Assembly: GCA_009697815.1 (NCBI GenBank)
Contig: WLRQ01000003.1
Coordinates: forward strand, 1 to 64,000
Source of the DNA: Actinomycetota bacterium
GTDB taxonomy: Bacteria > Actinomycetota > Actinomycetes > S36-B12 > CAIYMF01
DNA: 64,000 nt
Direction of reading: 5' to 3'
In this document: positions 53,054-62,927 of the stretch, piece after piece
Position numbering within the stretch: position 1 is the first letter of the stretch
Layout: each line of letters begins with the position of its first letter
Notes under the pieces: generated by a model
Databases searched by the model: none
Told to the model about the DNA's origin: nothing
The model's input: the letters and a program-made list of their open reading frames with translations, nothing else
Program-made: the position numbers and the translations under genes

Positions 53054-53863
53054 CTACTGGGCGGCCCGGCGGTTGTCGATGACATCGCTGACATCGGTGA
53101 TCGACCCCTGCCAGTGGGTGATCACGCCGGACTCGTCGCGAATCGCGCTGGTGCGGTCGATCACCTGGCGGATGCTGCCGTCGCGCGTGACGAGGCGGTA
53201 CTCCATATCGATGACGTCGACGGTGCCGTCATACATCCTCTGGACACTCGCCATCACTGCCGGGCGATCGTCCTCATGTACGAAGTCGGGGAAGGAGAAG
53301 AGCCCGGCTCTGGCATCCTCGACGCTGTAGCCGAAGCGGATGACATTGGAGGAGGTGTAGACCTTCTCGAACGACTCGTTCGCCAGGGTGAGGTGGAGCA
53401 CAGTGCTGCTCTCGGCCACGATGATGTTGGCGTAGTTCAGTTCATCCTCGAGGCGCTTGCGATCGGTGATGTCGGTGGAGATGCCGGCCATGCCGAGCAG
53501 CCGTCCGGTGCCGTCGAAAACCGGGCGCTTCACTGTCCAGTAGGTGCGCTTCTCACCGGTGGCCTTGATGACGTTGTGTTCCTCGCGCTCGACGAGTGCT
53601 CCGTCGGCCATCACCTGACGGTCGTTGGTGCGGAGCTCCTCAGACAGGGCGAGGTCAAAGAAGGCGCTGTCGTCCTTGCCCCTGATCTGCTCGAGCGTGG
53701 CGCCGAACACGGCCTGAACCGCCTTGTTGGCGTAGACATAGCGGCCCTGGAGGTCTTTCGAATAGACGGCCGCGTCCATGTCGTCGAGCAGCGCCCGAAG
53801 GCCGGCGTTCTCCTCGCGTAGGCGAGCGAGCTCCGCGTCGGGCGCGATCGTTGATTCGGACAA
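53054..53863 (-). CDS. two-PAS-domain protein without output domain
   Basis: The 269-residue protein has an N-terminal short coiled coil (DAELARLREENAGLRALLDDMD), PAS1 (about 25-135: AVYSKDLQGRYVYANKAVQAVFG... GMAGISTDITDRKR) and PAS2 (about 145-262: ESFEKVYTSSNVIRFGYSVEDA... WQGSITDVSDV). It ends directly after PAS2, so it has no kinase, GGDEF, EAL or DNA-binding part; it may act through a partner, possibly the GNAT enzyme translated next. The TTG at 53863 has GGAGG five bases upstream. Confidence 0.85.
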   Translation of the reverse strand: MSESTIAPDAELARLREENAGLRALLDDMDAAVYSKDLQGRYVYANKAVQAVFGATLEQIRGKDDSAFFDLALSEELRTNDRQVMADGALVEREEHNVIKATGEKRTYWTVKRPVFDGTGRLLGMAGISTDITDRKRLEDELNYANIIVAESSTVLHLTLANESFEKVYTSSNVIRFGYSVEDARAGLFSFPDFVHEDDRPAVMASVQRMYDGTVDVIDMEYRLVTRDGSIRQVIDRTSAIRDESGVITHWQGSITDVSDVIDNRRAAQ

Positions 53864-53969
53864 GGGAGCCTCCGCGGGGGGAAGAACTGACGCCGGTGTG
53901 AGTCCAGTGCATCATGGCGTGCGGAGGACCTCATTGGCGAGCGGCCCAGGTCTCCGTGTAGTCAACGCC

Positions 53970-54653
53970 TCACACGACCAGGCGTACCAGCGGGATGGCG
54001 ATGAGCGAGGTGAGCACCGCGGCCGATCCCATAGCGATCGACGATGCTGCCCCGGTGAGATCACCCTCGTGAAGGGCCTCGGCTGTTCCCTGTCCGTGGG
54101 AGATGGTGCCCAGTGCCTCACCGCGGGCCTCGGCGCGGGTGATCCTCATCCTGGTGAGCAGCCACGGGCCGAACATGCTTCCCACGAGGCCGGTGATGAT
54201 CACGAAGCCAGCCGTGAGGGTGGGGTCGGCGTCGATCTTCGGGGCGAGTGCGATGGCGATGGGCGCCGTGACGGACTTGATGCTCAGCGCTGCCTGCAGC
54301 TCCGGAGAGAGCCCGAGCAACTTCGCACATCCGATCGCCGCAATCATCGTGGAGAACGTGCCGGAGACGAGCCCCACGCAGAATGGCAGCGCATCCTTGA
54401 TGAGCACATGGCGGTGGCGGTAGAGCGGCACGGCCAGCGCCACCGTGGCGGGGCCGAGTAAGTACGTCATGATCGATTTCGCTTGGCTGTAGCCCGACAG
54501 GTCGATATGGGTTCCCCAGAGAACCAGCATCACCAGAGGGGTGCTCAGGAATACCGGCACGGTGAGCGGTGAGGGGTAGCGGCGCCCGATCGCCCTGCTC
54601 ACGGCGTAGGCGCCGATCGTGATCGCGATGCAGTAGACCGTCAGGAGGGTCAT
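53970..54653 (-). CDS. lrgB: LrgB-family membrane protein
   Basis: The 227-residue protein has about six to seven helices and the LrgB core LLGPATVALAVPLYRHRHVLIKDALPF, SIKSVTAPIAIALAP and GLVGSMFGPWLLTRMRI, followed by GTISHGQGTAEAL. With LrgA it forms a holin/antiholin-like pair; in some bacteria the pair transports pyruvate or glycolate or affects autolysis. Start ATG overlaps the lrgA stop by four bases. Confidence 0.92.
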   Translation of the reverse strand: MTLLTVYCIAITIGAYAVSRAIGRRYPSPLTVPVFLSTPLVMLVLWGTHIDLSGYSQAKSIMTYLLGPATVALAVPLYRHRHVLIKDALPFCVGLVSGTFSTMIAAIGCAKLLGLSPELQAALSIKSVTAPIAIALAPKIDADPTLTAGFVIITGLVGSMFGPWLLTRMRITRAEARGEALGTISHGQGTAEALHEGDLTGAASSIAMGSAAVLTSLIAIPLVRLVV

Positions 54654-55078
54654 GAGCCCTCCGGCGGGTGACTGCGCAGCAGCCTCGACACCGTGCCCCC
54701 CGTCACCATGATTCCGACAATGGCGCTGGCGATGAGGGTGGCGAGGATCGCGGCGCCCTCGGTGCGCAGGAGAGTGCCATAGGCCATGAGCCCCACCGCG
54801 ATCGGCACGAAGAAGAACGCCAGGTGTCGGGTGAAAATCGCGGCGCTCGCTGCGAACCACTCAATCCGTACAACTCGCGTCAGCAGAAGGGCGAGCAGGA
54901 TCAGCATTCCGACGAGGTTGCCGGGTAGTGGTAAGTGCATCCAGGACGCCAGATACTCGCCGGCGATGTTGAGGGCCACGAGGCCGAGCACCTGCAAGGC
55001 GAGTAGGGCGACGTCGGCCGGGCGTGGCATCTCGATCCTGCGCCGACGGGGATCAGGGGCAGGGGGTGTGGTTGACAC
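54650..55078 (-). CDS. lrgA: LrgA/CidA-family membrane protein
   Basis: The 142-residue protein has four helices and the family motif WMHLPLPGNLVGMLILLALLL, then FFVPIAVGLMAYGTLL. Partner of LrgB encoded directly after it. The GTG at 55078 has TAGATT eight bases upstream. It follows the giant surface-protein gene by 37 bases in the same direction, so readthrough from it is possible. Confidence 0.92.
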   Translation of the reverse strand: MSTTPPAPDPRRRRIEMPRPADVALLALQVLGLVALNIAGEYLASWMHLPLPGNLVGMLILLALLLTRVVRIEWFAASAAIFTRHLAFFFVPIAVGLMAYGTLLRTEGAAILATLIASAIVGIMVTGGTVSRLLRSHPPEGS

Positions 55079-55086
55079 AGACAGGA

Positions 55087-55092
55087 AATCTA
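55087..55092 (-). promoter_or_regulatory. -10 box of a leaderless lrgAB transcript
   Basis: TAGATT on the minus strand ends eight bases before the GTG at 55078. Confidence 0.45.
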
Positions 55093-55115
55093 CACGGGTG
55101 GCGCCGCGCTGCCAC

Positions 55116-58100
55116 CTAGATGTGCGGCACCGTGAGCTCGAGCGTGACGGCGAACACCATCAGGGCGAGCACTCGGTAGAACGGGGCCTTGAATCTGGGG
55201 CGGAGGTACCACCGGGTATCACCGGGGTGGGCCTTGCGACCGAACAACTTGAGGACGTCGATCAGGAAGACGGGCACCACCGCGAGCATGAAACCCCAAC
55301 GGGCCATCTCGACGCCGGGCTCGAAGATCTGGCCGATCCCGATGACCACCAGGGCCCCGAGGGCAAGCTCGACCATCAGCTTCGGCAGGCCGGACGGGAT
55401 CACCTGCCAGAGCTTGGGCTGGTTCTTGATCCCGCCGAAGAACATCCCGAGTAGGTGGGGCACCGTCAGCATGGCCGCCGCCGCATAGAGCTGCCAGACG
55501 TTTCCGACCAGCGCTACGGACACGAACGCGAACAGGGATCCCTTGATCAGCAGCGCGATCGTCTTGTGGAGCTTGGTCGCCTCTTCATTCGAGGTCTTGG
55601 AGTATCGCGCCAACCTCTCGGAGAACCAGCGGTTGGCGACCTCGTCGATCGTGACCCGAACAATCATCGCGATGACGACGACCAACCCAATGAGGCGCGC
55701 ATCGGACATGATCGGCAGTTCGAGCTCATGCATCGGTGACAGCATCAGGACGATCTTGATCATTGCCCAGCCGGCCACGAGCGGCGCCACGACGAAATCG
55801 GCGATGCGCTCGAGCCAGGCTGCGATGGTGCTCGGCGGGGGACGTCGGTAGTTGCGGATGTAGGTCGCCAGAATGCCTGGGGCACAGCCCATGAGAAGGA
55901 TGCCCAGGATGTACCTGATGTCGCCGAGTCCTGTGACACCGCCGCCGATGAGGACGCTCAGGGCGTAGATTCCCGTCGCGAATACTCCCGCCAACGCGTC
56001 GAGACATCCGACGGCAACGATGGCGGCGACGATCCAGGTGGCTGGAGGGAGCGATTGCCCGCCGGCGTCGTTCGCGGCGATGACGCCGAGCGCGATACCG
56101 AGAGCCGGCAAGAGGAGCGAGAAGCCACCGAGGACGGCGCGCATGGGCGCGGCATCGGCGATGATGCGGCTGGCCAGCGGTGATCTTGAGTGGGTGAAGG
56201 TCACCAGATACACCGTGATCGCCTCCAGAGCGTGGTGGCTGAAGATCCTCATCCCGCGAACCCGGTCGCGCCAGCGCTTGTGCTTGGTCTTCTCCCCTTG
56301 CTGCCGGTGCTCAAGCTCTTCGAGGCCGTCGACATTCCCCTCCTGCTGGCCACCCTCGTTCCCGCCGCTGTGTCCGCCGCCACCGGCCAGGGACAACAGA
56401 CTGGCGGTGGCCACCGCGGCCACGGTCAGCGTGACGGGGTTGTCGAGTGCGTGGAAGGTGTTGAGCGCACCTTCGACCGGCTCGCGGGTGGGGTCACCGG
56501 CGCCATTTGCGGACACCACACCGTCGGAGTCGACCTTGAAGCCGATGCGCCCCTCGACCTTGCTGCCATCGGCGTTAACACCTCGGGCGAGCAGCGTGTG
56601 TTCGCCCGATTCGAGACCGCTCGGGATCGCCAACGTGGCGGTGTAGTCACCTGCCGCATCGATCTTCTCGTCCAGGAGTTTGATCTGGTTGGAGAAGGCC
56701 CACGCGTCGATGCCGGTGCCCGGCTTCAGATGGGCGGCCGTGATCATGAATTGGGCGACCCCCAACTTGAGTCCGATCGCCGACTTGAGGTCGAGGATGA
56801 TCGGAGGGATGACGGGAGGCTTGGGGAGGTCGACTGGGCTCGAGAGGGAGGTGGCTGGGCCAAGACCGGCTTCGTTGCGGGCCGAGACGCGAGCCTGTAC
56901 CGAGTCTCCGAGGGAGGCGTCGAGTGAGACAGGGGAGATGGTGGCGACCACCTGCGTCCACGAGGAACTCGCCGACTTGCGGTACTCGACCATGTAGTCG
57001 ATCACGGGTGATCCGCCGACATCGAGCGGCGGCGTCCAGGCGATCGCGACCTTCGTGCCGGTAAGAGTGCCTGTGATCGACGCGATCGCGCCCGGAACAG
57101 TGAACGGGGTGATCGGGTCGCTCACCGCGCCAGCAGCTGCGTCGCCGGCCTCGTTCTGCGCCGTCACAGTGAGGGTGTAGGGGGTGCCGTTGGTGAGCCC
57201 CGTGCAGGTAGTGGTGGTGGCGGTGCCCGACACCGGACAGGTGCTCACCGCAGCCGAGGGCTCGGCCGAGGAGGCGCTGACTCGATAGCCGGTGATGTCA
57301 GAGCCCCCGTCGTCGGTGGGGGCCTTCCAGGTCAGGGCGATGGTGCCGTTGCCGGCGACGCCTGCCAAGGCGGTGGGAGTGCCCGGGACGGTGAGCGGGG
57401 TGACCGAGGTGGAGGGGATGCTCGCCTTGGAATCACCGATCGAGTTCTGGGCGATCACCGTGACGGTGTAACGCATGCCATTGGCCATACCGGTGCACAG
57501 GGCGGTGGTGTCTGTGGGCGTGGGCGTGACGGTGGGGCTCGCTGCGCCAGCGCCGATCACGCAGGGGCCGCCCAGGGGCGAGGTTGTCACCACGTAGGCG
57601 GTGATCGGGGATCCCCCGTCGGTGGCTGGGGGAGTCCAGGTGACAGCCAGGGTGGTGTCGCCGGGGACTGCGACCACCGACGTGGGAGCACCGGGAACCG
57701 TGATCGGTGTGATGACGGCACTCGAGGTGCCCGTCGCGGAATAGCCCGCCGCGTTGACGGCAAGGACAGTGACCGTATACGCGGCTCCGTTGGTGAGCCC
57801 CGTGCACCTGACGGCTGTCGCGGAACCGACGGCGGGGCACGAGCCAGCCGTTGCCGTGGGCGAGGTGGAGGATGCGGTGACGCTGTATTGGGTGATGGGC
57901 GCGCCGCCGTCGTCGACCGGGGGAGTCCACGTGAGGTCGATGAGGGCATCGCCCGCGGTGCCGGAGACGGAATCGGGAGCACCCGGGATGGTGCGCGGTG
58001 CGATGGCGGCGCTGAGGGCACCCCTGGCCACACCCACCGCAGCGTTCTGAGCGGTGACGGTGAAGGTGTACGAGGTTCCGTTGGTGAGACCTGTACACGT

Positions 58101-61100
58101 GGCGGTGGTGCCCAACGGTGGAGCGTCAATCACGCAGATTCCATCGGCAGGCTCGACCGTGATCGTGTAGCCGGTGATCGGCGAGCCGCCGTCATAGGGT
58201 GCCGTCCACGCCAAGCGGATGGCAGTGTTGTCGGGCTTGGGGGCTTTGAGGAGCGGCGCTCCCGGCACGGTGCGCGGTGTCGAGGCGGGGCTGAGACCGC
58301 CCGTGGCGGAGTCGCCCACGATGTTCTGTGCGATCACGGTGAAGACGTAGGTCGCGCCGTTAGTCAGGCCGCTGCAGATGCTGGTGATCGCGCCTGTCAC
58401 ACCGTCGGCGACGGGGGCGTCGCACGTGCCGGTGGATGTTGACGCGCCAGAGGCTGGCGAGGTGATGCTCGTGACGGCCACCACGTAGCCGGTGATCGCT
58501 GAGCCGCCGTCATCGGCCGGGGCCGTCCAGCCCAGTGTGATCGTGCCGTCTCCCGGCGCGGCGGTATCGACAGTGGGGGCGCCCGGGATCGTGCGAGGTG
58601 TGATCGGATCGCTCTCCGCACTCGGGGCGGAATCTCCCGCGATGTTCTGGGCGATCACGTTGAAGGTGTAGGCAGTTCCGTTCGCGAGGTTCCTGCAGGT
58701 CACGGAGGTGGCGGCGCCGACGACGACACAGGATCCGGCCGGCGACGTGGGCGAGGTGGTCACGACGTACCCGGTGACCACCGAACCGCCATTGTCGGCC
58801 GGTGCGCTCCAGGTGAGGTCGACCGTGGTGTCGTGGGGGGTTCCGGTGACGGTGGTGGGTGATCCCGGCACGCTGCGCGGGGTCACAGCGGCACTGTCGC
58901 CGCCGACGAGTGAGTCGCCCGCCGCGTTGTGAGCCTTGACGGTGAACGTGTACGACCTACCGTTTGTCAGCCCCGTGCAGCTGGCGCTTCGGGTGACCGT
59001 GATGACGGTGCAGTAGCCATCGGCTGGGGTGGTCACGACGGAGTACCCGTTGATCACCGAGCCACCGCTGTCGGATGGGGCCGCCCAGGACAACTCCACG
59101 GAAGCGTCGCCCGCTACTGCGCCCACAGCCGTGGGCGCGCTTGGGGTGGTGCGCGGCGTCGCTGCGGGACTCGTGCCCCCGGTGACCGACTCCCCGGCGA
59201 TGTTGTGTGCGAAGACGGTGAAGGTGTAAGGCGTGCCATTGGTCAGCCCCGAGCAGAGCGCCGTGACACCCGATACCTGGCAGGATCCGTTGGCCGGTGA
59301 GGGTTGCACGGTGTAGGACGTGATCTGTGAACCGCCATCGTCGGTCGGGACGCTCCAGATGAGAGCTACCGAGCCCTCACCCTCAGTGCCGGCGACGTTG
59401 GATGGGGCTCCGGGCACGGTTCGCGGTGTCACCTCGGGGCTCGAGCCGCCGGTGAGGGATGCCCCGGCAACGTTCAGGGCCAGAACTGTCACGGTGTACG
59501 GGGTGCCGTTATCCAGTCCCTCGCAGACCGCCGTTGTCGTGGTTCCGTTGGTGACGCACGACACCGGCGACCCCGGCGGGGTCGTGGCCGCAGAGGCGGT
59601 GACGGCGTAGCCGGTGATGGCCGAGCCGCCGTTGTCGCTCGGTGGAGTCCAGGTGACTGTCACCGAGCTGTCATCCGGTGTCACGGTGTCGACGGTGGGC
59701 GCGCCGGGCACAGTCCGCGGTGTCGCAGCATCGCTGGCGATACTGGGATCTGACGAACCCGCGATGTTCTGCGCGACGACCGTGACGGTGTAGGGCGTGC
59801 CGTTCGTCAAGCCCGTGCAGGTCACGGTGTTGGCCGCGCCAGCGACGAGACACGAACCGGGCTCGGACGCGGGGGTGGTCGTCACCGAGTAGCCGGTGAT
59901 CGGCGAGCCGCCGTCGAAAATCGGTTCTGCCCACGACAGAGCCAAGGTCGTGTCGCCCGCTACGGCCGTCACGGAGGTGGGAACGTCGGGAACGGTGCGC
60001 GGGATGATCGGGTCGAGGTTTGCCCCGCCCGTCACGGAGGCTCCCGCCGCGTTATGCGCTGTCACGGTGAATGTGTAGCCAATGCCGTTGCGCAGTCCCG
60101 TGCATTGCGCGGTCGTCGAGGTGCCGACCCCGACACAGGATGCGCCAGCGTCGGCGGGCGCCACGGTGACTGAGTAGCTCGAGACCGCGTCACCGCCATT
60201 GTCGTCCGGGGCGATCCACGAGAGCCTGGCCGCGCGGTCATCTTCAATCCCGGTCACACCCGAGGGGGGCCCAGGCAGGGTGCGCGGAATGATCGGATCG
60301 GCGTTGGTGCCGCCGGTAAGAGACGGGCCCGCCGAGTTATGGGCGATCACTGTGAACGTGTACGAGGTTCCGTTCGACAGGCCCGTGCAGGTGGCGCTGG
60401 TGCCGACGACAACGCACGATCCGCCCGTGGGGTCGTGGGTCTCGGTGTACTCGGTGATGGGAGATCCGCCGGTGTCGACCGGGGGAGTCCACGTCAGGGC
60501 TGCCGTGTGGTTGCCCACATCACCGCGGACGCCGGTCGGGGGATCCGGGACGGTGCGAGGTGTGCCGCTGACGGTCGTGACCGCGCCGAGCCCGACCACA
60601 TTGCGCGCCTGAACGCCCAGGGTGTACGAGGTGCCGTTGGTGAGGCCGTCAACGACGGCCGACCCGGAGTCGCCCGCGACGTCGGCCGTCAGTTCGGGGT
60701 GGCCGACCACCTCGATGTGGTAGCCGGTGACGGGGATATCGCCGTTGGATGTGGGGGCGTCCCAGGCGAGCGTGAGCTCTCGCCCACCGGGCTCTGCGGT
60801 GAGGTTGCGTGGGGTGAGCGGTGGCGGCCACGAGGTGACCGTCACCGCATCGGATGAGGTTGCCCCGATCGAGGTCCTCACGGTGACTCTCATCGAGACC
60901 GGCACAGCGTTCGTCAGGCCCGACACCACGACGGAGCGGGTCGCCCCGACGAGCGAGGCGGCCGACGCGGTGATCGTGGCACCAGCGGCGGGCACTGGTG
61001 TCCAGACGCCGGTGGGCTGCTCGATCTCGATCGACCTCGAGGTGATGGGCGCGCCGCCGTCGGCCGGATCCGTCCATGTCAGTGTGGCTTCGCGGTCGCC

Positions 61101-62249
61101 GGGGGTCGATGTGAGGTCGACGACCGTGCCTGGATTGATCGCCGCCGTGAGGTTGATCGTCGAGGTGAGTTGTTCGATCGGCGCCTGCCCGGCGAGCCCG
61201 CCGTATTCCACGACATACGAGGCCAGGGTGGTGCTCGCTAATCCATCGCTCCACAGGCCCGTGCTCGCGCTGAACATCCCGAAATTGGAACTTCTGGTGG
61301 TGACCCCGGGGCCGCAGTCGTTGGGCTCCCTCAGAACGACAGGGGTCACTCCACTGGCGGAAGCTTGGATCCAGGCATTGAACTGAGACCTGCCTGCCAC
61401 CACAGCGGGAAGTGATGCGGCATAGGTGCAGGTATTGGACCGGAGCCCCTGCTCGGTCAGCGGCTGACCTTTCTCGGGGCCGGCAACCCAGTACCAGTGG
61501 CCCTCCGATGTGGTGTCGGTGGCGTAGGTCGTGGTTCCCGTGGCGGCGTTGATCGGGGCAGACGCGTCCGAGGCGCCGAGCCAACCACCGCTATTGACCT
61601 TTGCGCGGAGAAAGTCGAACTCGTTTTGGCTGGTGACGGTGACGAGGTATCCCGTGAGCCCGTTGAAGGCGCGGCTCGCCGTCGCGGTCTGTGCATCAGC
61701 CCAGGTGACGGCTGAGCCGGTGACGATCTCGTAGTAGTGCCCGTTCTCGACGTTGTACGCGGCTCCGCCTCGCGTTGCCGTGACGGTGATCGTGCCCGTC
61801 TGCGCAACAGCCGGTACGGGCGTCGTGGTGGTGACGCTCAGGCTGGCCAGTGCTGCGTTGACTGCGGCAACGGATCCTTCGATCCCGATGGTGCTTCCGG
61901 TCAGCGGGTAGCCCGTGATCTGCGAGGTCGATCCTTGATCGACGGCGATTGTGCCGAGTGTGGACTTCACGACGACCCGGACGTTGCCTGCGAAGCCGTC
62001 GCTCACGGACACTCCCGGGACCGCGACCGTGCTGCCGCTGGTGACGGTGACATCGGTTGGAGCCGCGATCGCGGCCGCCCCTGCGGCCGCCTGCGAGACC
62101 ATCGGCACGGCGACTGCGGCTACCAGTGCGGCCGCGCCGACAAGATATCGGCGCACCACCGCGGGCGCCGGCCAGAAGGTGATCCGTGGTGAGCGGTGCG
62201 GGTGACCAGCGCGGCGTGGCGAGCGGTGTCTCGCTGAACGCGATGCCAC
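55116..62249 (-). CDS. giant surface protein: C-type-lectin domain, 15 FN3 domains and polytopic membrane domain
   Basis: The 2377-residue protein begins with a signal peptide ending near residue 60 (YLVGAAALVAAVAVPMVSQAAA), then a cadherin/Ig-like strand region (65-160). A C-type-lectin-fold domain follows (about 165-350) with WADAQTATASRAFNGLTGYL, TVTSQNEFDFLRAKV, GWLGASD, EGHWYWVAGPEKG and a Cys pair. Fifteen FN3 domains run from about 375 to 1810, then a beta domain (1811-1930), a first transmembrane helix (about 1937-1957), a Gly/Gln/charged linker, and a polytopic domain of roughly nine to ten helices (about 2005-2377). The GTG at 62249 has GGAGG five bases upstream. Such a chain would project a lectin tip about 15 domains from a multi-pass anchor; the membrane domain's activity is unknown. 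Confidence 0.85.
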   Translation of the reverse strand: MASRSARHRSPRRAGHPHRSPRITFWPAPAVVRRYLVGAAALVAAVAVPMVSQAAAGAAAIAAPTDVTVTSGSTVAVPGVSVSDGFAGNVRVVVKSTLGTIAVDQGSTSQITGYPLTGSTIGIEGSVAAVNAALASLSVTTTTPVPAVAQTGTITVTATRGGAAYNVENGHYYEIVTGSAVTWADAQTATASRAFNGLTGYLVTVTSQNEFDFLRAKVNSGGWLGASDASAPINAATGTTTYATDTTSEGHWYWVAGPEKGQPLTEQGLRSNTCTYAASLPAVVAGRSQFNAWIQASASGVTPVVLREPNDCGPGVTTRSSNFGMFSASTGLWSDGLASTTLASYVVEYGGLAGQAPIEQLTSTINLTAAINPGTVVDLTSTPGDREATLTWTDPADGGAPITSRSIEIEQPTGVWTPVPAAGATITASAASLVGATRSVVVSGLTNAVPVSMRVTVRTSIGATSSDAVTVTSWPPPLTPRNLTAEPGGRELTLAWDAPTSNGDIPVTGYHIEVVGHPELTADVAGDSGSAVVDGLTNGTSYTLGVQARNVVGLGAVTTVSGTPRTVPDPPTGVRGDVGNHTAALTWTPPVDTGGSPITEYTETHDPTGGSCVVVGTSATCTGLSNGTSYTFTVIAHNSAGPSLTGGTNADPIIPRTLPGPPSGVTGIEDDRAARLSWIAPDDNGGDAVSSYSVTVAPADAGASCVGVGTSTTAQCTGLRNGIGYTFTVTAHNAAGASVTGGANLDPIIPRTVPDVPTSVTAVAGDTTLALSWAEPIFDGGSPITGYSVTTTPASEPGSCLVAGAANTVTCTGLTNGTPYTVTVVAQNIAGSSDPSIASDAATPRTVPGAPTVDTVTPDDSSVTVTWTPPSDNGGSAITGYAVTASAATTPPGSPVSCVTNGTTTTAVCEGLDNGTPYTVTVLALNVAGASLTGGSSPEVTPRTVPGAPSNVAGTEGEGSVALIWSVPTDDGGSQITSYTVQPSPANGSCQVSGVTALCSGLTNGTPYTFTVFAHNIAGESVTGGTSPAATPRTTPSAPTAVGAVAGDASVELSWAAPSDSGGSVINGYSVVTTPADGYCTVITVTRSASCTGLTNGRSYTFTVKAHNAAGDSLVGGDSAAVTPRSVPGSPTTVTGTPHDTTVDLTWSAPADNGGSVVTGYVVTTSPTSPAGSCVVVGAATSVTCRNLANGTAYTFNVIAQNIAGDSAPSAESDPITPRTIPGAPTVDTAAPGDGTITLGWTAPADDGGSAITGYVVAVTSITSPASGASTSTGTCDAPVADGVTGAITSICSGLTNGATYVFTVIAQNIVGDSATGGLSPASTPRTVPGAPLLKAPKPDNTAIRLAWTAPYDGGSPITGYTITVEPADGICVIDAPPLGTTATCTGLTNGTSYTFTVTAQNAAVGVARGALSAAIAPRTIPGAPDSVSGTAGDALIDLTWTPPVDDGGAPITQYSVTASSTSPTATAGSCPAVGSATAVRCTGLTNGAAYTVTVLAVNAAGYSATGTSSAVITPITVPGAPTSVVAVPGDTTLAVTWTPPATDGGSPITAYVVTTSPLGGPCVIGAGAASPTVTPTPTDTTALCTGMANGMRYTVTVIAQNSIGDSKASIPSTSVTPLTVPGTPTALAGVAGNGTIALTWKAPTDDGGSDITGYRVSASSAEPSAAVSTCPVSGTATTTTCTGLTNGTPYTLTVTAQNEAGDAAAGAVSDPITPFTVPGAIASITGTLTGTKVAIAWTPPLDVGGSPVIDYMVEYRKSASSSWTQVVATISPVSLDASLGDSVQARVSARNEAGLGPATSLSSPVDLPKPPVIPPIILDLKSAIGLKLGVAQFMITAAHLKPGTGIDAWAFSNQIKLLDEKIDAAGDYTATLAIPSGLESGEHTLLARGVNADGSKVEGRIGFKVDSDGVVSANGAGDPTREPVEGALNTFHALDNPVTLTVAAVATASLLSLAGGGGHSGGNEGGQQEGNVDGLEELEHRQQGEKTKHKRWRDRVRGMRIFSHHALEAITVYLVTFTHSRSPLASRIIADAAPMRAVLGGFSLLLPALGIALGVIAANDAGGQSLPPATWIVAAIVAVGCLDALAGVFATGIYALSVLIGGGVTGLGDIRYILGILLMGCAPGILATYIRNYRRPPPSTIAAWLERIADFVVAPLVAGWAMIKIVLMLSPMHELELPIMSDARLIGLVVVIAMIVRVTIDEVANRWFSERLARYSKTSNEEATKLHKTIALLIKGSLFAFVSVALVGNVWQLYAAAAMLTVPHLLGMFFGGIKNQPKLWQVIPSGLPKLMVELALGALVVIGIGQIFEPGVEMARWGFMLAVVPVFLIDVLKLFGRKAHPGDTRWYLRPRFKAPFYRVLALMVFAVTLELTVPHI
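56820..61127 (-). repeat. array of 15 fibronectin type III repeats (about 285 bp each)
   Basis: Each unit follows the FN3 pattern: W(T)xPxDxGGSxITxY, then GLTNGTxYTxTVxAxNxAG, then a hinge of the form TPRTVPGAPT. Units 3-14 (12 in a row) carry one Cys before and one in CTGLTNGT, a regular pair that could form a disulphide within each domain. Units 1, 2 and 15 lack it and are the most diverged. Confidence 0.9.
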
Positions 62250-62504
62250 TCACCCTCCAACGGGCCGGTGAACGAGACCTCTCGTGAGGTCTGGAACGGG
62301 CTGACTCGGCCTGGCACGTCCCAAGACCGAGGGCGGGCGATGACCGGTGGAAGACCGGACGGGTTCCGCGGCCGCGTGATGGGGGGACGCAGGCTGCACG
62401 ATACGCGAAATTCGGCCTCGGGAGACTGACCGTCCTGAGGGAAATTGAGTGAAAACCGAGGGTCTGGCCGCGAGCTCACGCGGCGGGGGCCAACCCCTCC
62501 GGGC

Positions 62505-62927
62505 TCAGGGAAGTTCACCCGCTGGGCCGGCGGCGCTCGAGGAGGCATCCGTGTGATGGTGCACGAGCGTCCAGCCCTGGGGCTCGCGTCGGAAGATGTT
62601 GGTCGCACGGTGTGTGAGGCTCACGCTCTCCCCGTTGATGACGTGATCGAGACCGTGCTCGGTGCACGCCGTGTAGCCCATGTCGGTGCCCTCCACCATG
62701 TGCACATCGGACACCTCGATCCGACCGCCCAGACGAATCGCTGCCGAGCGCGCGAACTCGGCGGTGACGGCCGCGCTCCCGGTGATGAAGCCACCGAACG
62801 GCCCGGCGTAGGTGACGTCATCGTGCGTCGACCACAGCGCCTGGACTGGTGCGGGATCTCCCGTGAGCATCACGTTGAGGGCTTCATACAGGCGGTCATG
62901 CGCTGATGCGAGTGTGTCGTCGGCCAT
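62505..62927 (-). CDS. SnoaL/NTF2-like protein
   Basis: The 140-residue cone-shaped alpha+beta fold is recognised from LASAHDRLYEALNVMLTGDPAPVQALWSTHDDVTYAGPFGG, AAVTAEFARSA, and the closing strands SLTHRATNIFRREPQGWTLVHHHTD. Family members are ketosteroid-isomerase-like enzymes or small-ligand-binding proteins; the substrate is not evident. It follows an ABM-like gene by 32 bases in the same direction. Confidence 0.82.
   Translation of the reverse strand: MADDTLASAHDRLYEALNVMLTGDPAPVQALWSTHDDVTYAGPFGGFITGSAAVTAEFARSAAIRLGGRIEVSDVHMVEGTDMGYTACTEHGLDHVINGESVSLTHRATNIFRREPQGWTLVHHHTDASSSAAGPAGELP

Follow-up and report, generated by a model that had tools for sequence, protein, structure and literature searches.

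Surface proteins are normally anchored to the cell by a single transmembrane helix or a sortase motif. In the sortase-anchored (LPXTG) and single-helix FN3/Ig adhesins of Gram-positive bacteria, N-terminal adhesive domains are exported through Sec, followed by an FN3 stalk, a juxtamembrane Ig-like domain and a C-terminal anchoring element. Large adhesive or sensory ectodomains also precede polytopic membrane domains, as is the case for 7TMR-DISM receptors and the adhesion GPCRs of animals. Myxosortase (CPBP) is reported to be a polytopic membrane protein that deals with exported surface proteins (PMC11980579).

The giant gene described here shares features with each of these systems. It lies in a 64,000-nucleotide stretch of DNA (the window, by which we mean the whole stretch that was analysed). 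Its parts and two neighbouring genes are as follows.

55116..62249, minus strand: whole open reading frame, 2,377 amino acids (reading frame)
62082..62249, minus strand: signal-peptide region with a long basic n-region and a hydrophobic core at residues 36-54 (hydropathy 1.94 and sequence)
61194..61757, minus strand: C-type-lectin-like domain, about residues 165-352, with EPN...WSD
56823..61127, minus strand: 15 FN3 domains (Pfam fn3 E=4e-164, spacing and Cys positions)
56517..56795, minus strand: juxtamembrane Ig-like domain with the motifs IPSGLESGEHTLLARG / IPSGLESGEHTLL (sequence)
56379..56447, minus strand: TM1, residues about 1939-1957, preceded by a recurring ALDNP motif (hydropathy)
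56253..56378, minus strand: charged linker, cytosolic by prediction (sequence and topology argument)
55119..56252, minus strand: conserved polytopic domain, residues 2000-2377, predicted N-in/C-out (hydropathy, AF2 model, charge bias and conservation)
54650..55078, minus strand: lrgA, 37 bp downstream of the giant ORF (Pfam LrgA E=6e-26)
53970..54860, minus strand: lrgB (Pfam LrgB E=4e-65)

The 2,377 codons form one open reading frame without an internal stop, which bears out the single-chain fusion of lectin, FN3 and polytopic domains, with its 15 FN3 repeats, proposed in the preliminary description. Pfam fn3 scores above cut-off in 15 stretches (E=4e-164), identifying an FN3 array, and the same number of Trp-bearing B-strand motifs recur in it at intervals of 90-107 residues. 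About 12 of the 15 domains contain a Cys pair, 9-22 residues apart, which suggests a disulfide-stabilised stalk. The motif of the Ig-like domain recurs in relatives as PSGLEAGTHT and PPGFHS; a regular expression for it finds 15 of 61 loci, the pattern being so strict that it overlooks the window's own copy. With its adhesive N-terminus, FN3 stalk, juxtamembrane Ig-like domain and C-terminal anchor, the giant protein resembles sortase-anchored and single-helix adhesins. Unlike these, it has no LPXTG motif that we could see, and its anchor is polytopic, with near-invariant charges. The usual sortase-substrate ending of LPXTG, hydrophobic stretch and basic tail is absent, as the chain runs out in the polytopic domain and finishes with VPHI.

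The assignment of the lectin-like tip is weak on its own. The window's domain falls below the cut-off for Lectin_C (E=0.22), its best PDB matches are C-type lectins (E=0.06), its structure model has a pLDDT of 40, and it keeps EPN but has WSD in place of WND. Support comes from its homologue in an independent genome (L039/L065), which is 35% identical (E=1e-39), scores better against Lectin_C (E=2e-4, 22.4 bits, with the cut-off at 22.6) and has both EPN and WND intact.

The C-terminal domain (residues 2000-2377) defines a family for which we could not identify known relatives. Its close relatives mostly show 9-11 hydropathy peaks and divergent members fewer, and an AlphaFold2 model built from 33 sequences is all-helical (pLDDT 84, pTM 0.83), in keeping with the earlier estimate of about ten membrane helices. 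The domain has no significant match among Pfam, NCBIfam, PHROGs and PADLOC profiles, the last of which speaks against a role in defence, and none among PDB sequences, profile searches included. Foldseek of the model against the PDB returned nothing significant (best E=0.23, probability 0.21, TM-score about 0.2); GPCR chains appeared with non-significant E-values only, and the viral matches in BFVD were all non-significant. A plasmid or viral origin was considered and set aside, since neither plasmids nor viral contigs gave a match. Open-licence papers yielded no description of the family or of a system of this design. The preliminary description had likewise known of none, and neither a named family covering the C-terminal domain nor evidence of an assembly error behind the fusion emerged. 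As far as these searches reach, the polytopic module thus appears to be undescribed, although membrane-held adhesins are already known. It offers a defined target for structure work, having no Pfam or NCBIfam entry and no structural relative that we could find.

The domain recurs across genomes with E-values down to 1e-170, and 61 distinct members with a near-complete domain could be aligned. Members share about 375 residues with D33, R38, D85, R133, D152 and R213 (domain numbering), placed C-terminally after an ectodomain, TM1 and a linker. The window's protein has all of these and matches the family profile with E=7e-136, a value to which its own presence among the profile's sequences contributes. 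The domain occurs in 41 of 166 genomes of the order and also in other orders, with 20 of 395 genomes in the class sample and 8 of 396 in the phylum sample. Scanning 84,980 species genomes yielded 34 loci, all labelled Actinomycetota and one of them Acidimicrobiales, so the family probably extends to a second class of the phylum; the scan relied on two peptide patterns, which distant relatives elsewhere could escape. Carriers look like mostly aquatic actinobacteria, many of them with isolate names that suggest lake, reservoir or bay samples. Seven loci (L069, L072, L074, L078, L079, L084 and L096) are titled Bifidobacterium breve yet encode this aquatic-actinobacterial family, and their label is probably wrong. 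In two others, the domain is spread across two frames (L055:9819-11233 in G067 and L057:8017-10261 in G032), as pseudogenes or through sequence errors.

While the membrane domain is constant, what precedes it is not. In 58 of the 61 members, the polytopic domain ends no more than about 12 residues from the C-terminus. The ectodomains comprise lectin plus FN3, FN3, Gly-rich ALK/LTK, EPTP/DUF6242, Big_2/He_PIG and low-complexity acidic or Ser/Thr/Pro-rich types; FN3 is found in 6 of 47 complete members, the window's included. The lectin-FN3-polytopic order that the preliminary description proposed to look for elsewhere is present in L039/L065, as a protein of 1,900 residues. Several clades carry an ectodomain of only about 150-450 residues, mostly of low complexity. 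L154 and the L155 pair have little or none and no obvious secreted neighbour; the latter (L155:830-3937) consists of tandem domain copies of 499 and 480 residues, whose N-termini are rich in Ala, Arg and Gly and in which an ectodomain is not evident. Three members have the polytopic domain at the N-terminus, with an NHL/SGL beta-propeller after its last helix. In three Acidimicrobiia-like loci (L156-L158), a secreted-type gene stops at, or no more than a few bases away from, the point where the domain-plus-propeller gene starts, and the three share the same oxidoreductase and MFS-like genes further downstream.

In acI-like genomes of family f31 (so labelled from genome size and kin; single-contig genomes of 1.3-1.6 Mb are among them) and in G033, the same parts are encoded separately. 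The membrane protein here has about 550-595 residues and consists of a signal peptide, TM1 and the polytopic domain, in most cases with an Ig-like domain bearing a PPGFHS-type motif. L053 and L137-L142, seven loci in total, all have a secreted-type gene upstream whose last bases are shared with the start of the membrane-protein gene, the overlap being exactly 4 bp each time. The three upstream passengers readable at length measure 2,014-3,974 residues and contain fn3, List_Bact repeats, Gly-rich and Big_13 regions (Pfam); the partners in L141 and L142 are cut by contig ends. Most split passengers end in an Ala/Lys/Glu-rich, coiled-coil-like stretch followed by a GLKPGQKxxVxV tail, while the shorter partner in L139 (257 residues) has a different tail. 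One genome (G171) has two split pairs, in which the membrane proteins are 91% identical and the giants about 28%. In the tree, split members fall into at most two groups, and the window's protein forms a long branch inside the fused clade. That domain and giant passenger are fused in one lineage and translationally coupled in another is the strongest evidence for their cooperation.

The neighbourhoods of a distant branch tie the family to surface-structure operons once more. In L144-L146 and L092, divergent members directly follow a SipW/archaeal-type signal peptidase (TIGR02228 E=3e-15 in L146), with a collagen-like protein downstream in L144-L146. Several TasA-like (LNSGSAVEFGQG) secreted proteins are encoded upstream of the peptidase and the divergent member in L144-L146 and L092; TasA-like is our reading of them, and the L092 protein had no match among NCBIfam models. 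Likeness to the TasA/SipW fibre operons of Bacillus is confined to this branch and does not extend to the window's locus. We know of no counterpart of the polytopic protein in tapA-sipW-tasA. At four other loci, the domain gene stands beside a membrane protein of about 640 residues (L041:12111-14030, L064:2921-4867, L068:9707-11629 and L084:1036-2940), which we take to be a putative CASTOR/POLLUX-like ion channel.

Charge bias allows the topology of the domain to be predicted. Lys and Arg average 2-4 in the N-terminal, C-D, E-F, G-H and I-J loops and are near zero in the A-B, B-C, D-E, F-G and H-I loops and at the C-terminus. Given this alternation, helix B (residues 72-84 and 86-102, broken at the conserved D85) must form a hairpin. 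The model and the charges together predict an N-in/C-out domain whose 10 helices, with one probable hairpin among them, make 11 crossings. An ectodomain before TM1, as in most members, and one after the last helix, as in the propeller form, both agree with this orientation. The giant protein is like 7TMR-DISM receptors and adhesion GPCRs in that a large ectodomain leads into a polytopic domain; it differs from them in its about 11 rather than seven crossings by model and charge bias, the lack of a cytosolic output domain in the members scanned and the lack of a fold match, and we rejected both as relatives.

The best-conserved charged residues D33 (60/60), D85 (59/61), R133 and D152 (both 61/61) all lie at the predicted cytosolic face; R38 is kept in 56 of 61. 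Columns in which at least 70% of the weighted sequences have one charge class number 13, and of these 12 are cytosolic, one is mid-membrane and none is on the outer side; these sides are predicted partly from the same Lys and Arg residues that count as conserved, and the acidic D33, D85, D152 and E203 agree with them. As these charges stay constant beneath very different ectodomains, the module is probably more than an anchor, with a conserved cytosol-facing site that may be active. The preliminary description had taken polar residues as a hint in this direction, and the near-invariant charges across the 61 members sustain it. For the most part, conservation falls outside the stretches that it cited: MRIFSHHALEAI is not conserved except for its acidic position 10, and in RNYRRPPPST it is mainly the arginines that are.

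Based on these observations, we lean towards the view that the polytopic module is a common Actinomycetota platform that anchors or assembles large Sec-exported surface proteins. The giant chain would be exported N-terminus first via Sec, a step predicted, like the topology, from sequence; ectodomains of the family begin with hydrophobic, signal-peptide-like segments. This would place the lectin-like tip and the probably disulfide-stabilised FN3 stalk outside the cell. At 3-4 nm per domain, 15 FN3 domains would span roughly 50 nm and so reach through the wall of a monoderm cell. TM1 would then bring the chain back into the membrane, the linker would be cytosolic, and the 11 crossings of the polytopic domain would hold the stalk. 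In acI-like genomes, a separate secreted passenger would be translationally coupled to the membrane-domain gene; gene overlap and tail conservation suggest that the Ig-like/TM portion of the module is the probable docking site of the passenger's conserved C-terminal tail. The anatomy of the domains argues for anchoring, and their conservation for a further activity, by which the module probably helps to place, retain or assemble the surface structure. Against a platform, 11 crossings seem excessive for anchoring alone, L154 and the L155 pair have scant ectodomain, and ectodomains are short and of low complexity in several clades. Only tentatively would we go as far as a surface-assembly system of planktonic Actinomycetota, in which an 11-crossing machine with a cytosol-facing catalytic or coupling site handles giant passengers, fused or coupled, that it recognises by their tails.

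Few freshwater bacteria are as abundant as the acI lineage and its actinobacterial kin. A conserved membrane module tied to giant exported proteins implies that their streamlined genomes are partly spent on surface structures, with a bearing on how these cells attach and how they resist grazing and phages. The split and fused pairs make the role of the module testable.

Alternatively, the protein may be an ectodomain-gated transporter, channel or sensor, whose stalk binds glycans or feels force while the polytopic domain moves a solute or signals. Ten or more helices, the near-invariant charges on their cytosolic side and the putative ion-channel-like neighbour at four loci are compatible with this. 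However, the model matches no transporter or receptor fold, no cytosolic output domain was recognised among the members scanned, linkers are variable and often Gly/Ser-rich, and ectodomains are exchangeable or come from a gene of their own; we regard such gating as unlikely. The protein may be a transporter, self-exporter or signalling device, as raised in the preliminary description, but nothing speaks positively for one: the ectodomains begin with hydrophobic, signal-peptide-like segments, and the searches found no ATPase, cytosolic output domain or transporter fold.

The polytopic domain could also be a membrane enzyme that processes, lipidates or glycosylates its own passenger or neighbours, in a role like that of exosortase, myxosortase or a membrane glycosyltransferase. 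Exosortase/archaeosortase, rhombosortase and myxosortase (CPBP) are likewise polytopic and tied to exported surface proteins. In contrast to them, the family lacks the catalytic Cys/His, is fused to its passenger and shows no match in sequence or fold. Its invariant acidic and basic residues, the signal peptidase adjoining the distant branch and an EExxxR motif reminiscent of CPBP proteases would suit an enzyme; yet EExxxR occurs in 27 of 61 members and is not family-wide, no Cys or His column is conserved at 40% or more, solved enzymes provide no fold match, and the conserved charges face the cytosol by prediction, whereas passengers are processed at the outer side. An enzyme seems unlikely. 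A myxosortase-like CPBP protease was rejected on the EExxxR count and the missing His column, and exosortase/archaeosortase for want of a conserved Cys column and an NCBIfam match.

A purely passive anchor, in which the domain is a large hydrophobic plug and conserved residues serve only its own folding, would account for the constant C-terminal position across diverse surface proteins, and the conserved Asp and Arg could be structural salt bridges. The conservation pattern argues against it, with charges gathered on a single face and 97-100% conservation of four of them among members that share as little as about 20-30% identity, and we consider it very unlikely. An artefact of assembly or binning is hardly credible: none of the other 16 genomes in the taxonomic family carries the domain, but misassembly, misbinning and chimerism are ruled out by the continuous frame, the syntenic flanks and the equal architecture in L039/L065. 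HK, WhiB, DAGK, GNAT and, beyond the giant gene, SodN, malic enzyme and ADH stand in an order shared with genus relatives, to which the flanking genes are 65-95% identical where contigs extend far enough.

The lrgAB genes are adjacent membrane genes, with lrgA starting 37 bp past the stop of the giant ORF as originally described. A partnership with the polytopic domain was rejected: neither gene is found in the 119 other family loci fetched, which leaves the linkage raised in the preliminary description unsupported, and a profile comparison of LrgB with the domain reveals no similarity (hhalign probability 0.1%). As the linkage recurs nowhere, lrgAB gives no clue to function and probably neighbours the giant gene only incidentally. 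Within the genus, lrgB is without a real match. The block PAS-lrgB-lrgA-giant-SnoaL (window 53054-62927) between GNAT and SodN is present only in this genome of the genus, either lost in its relatives or acquired here; in one relative (L177), the GNAT-SodN interval measures about 0.7 kb.
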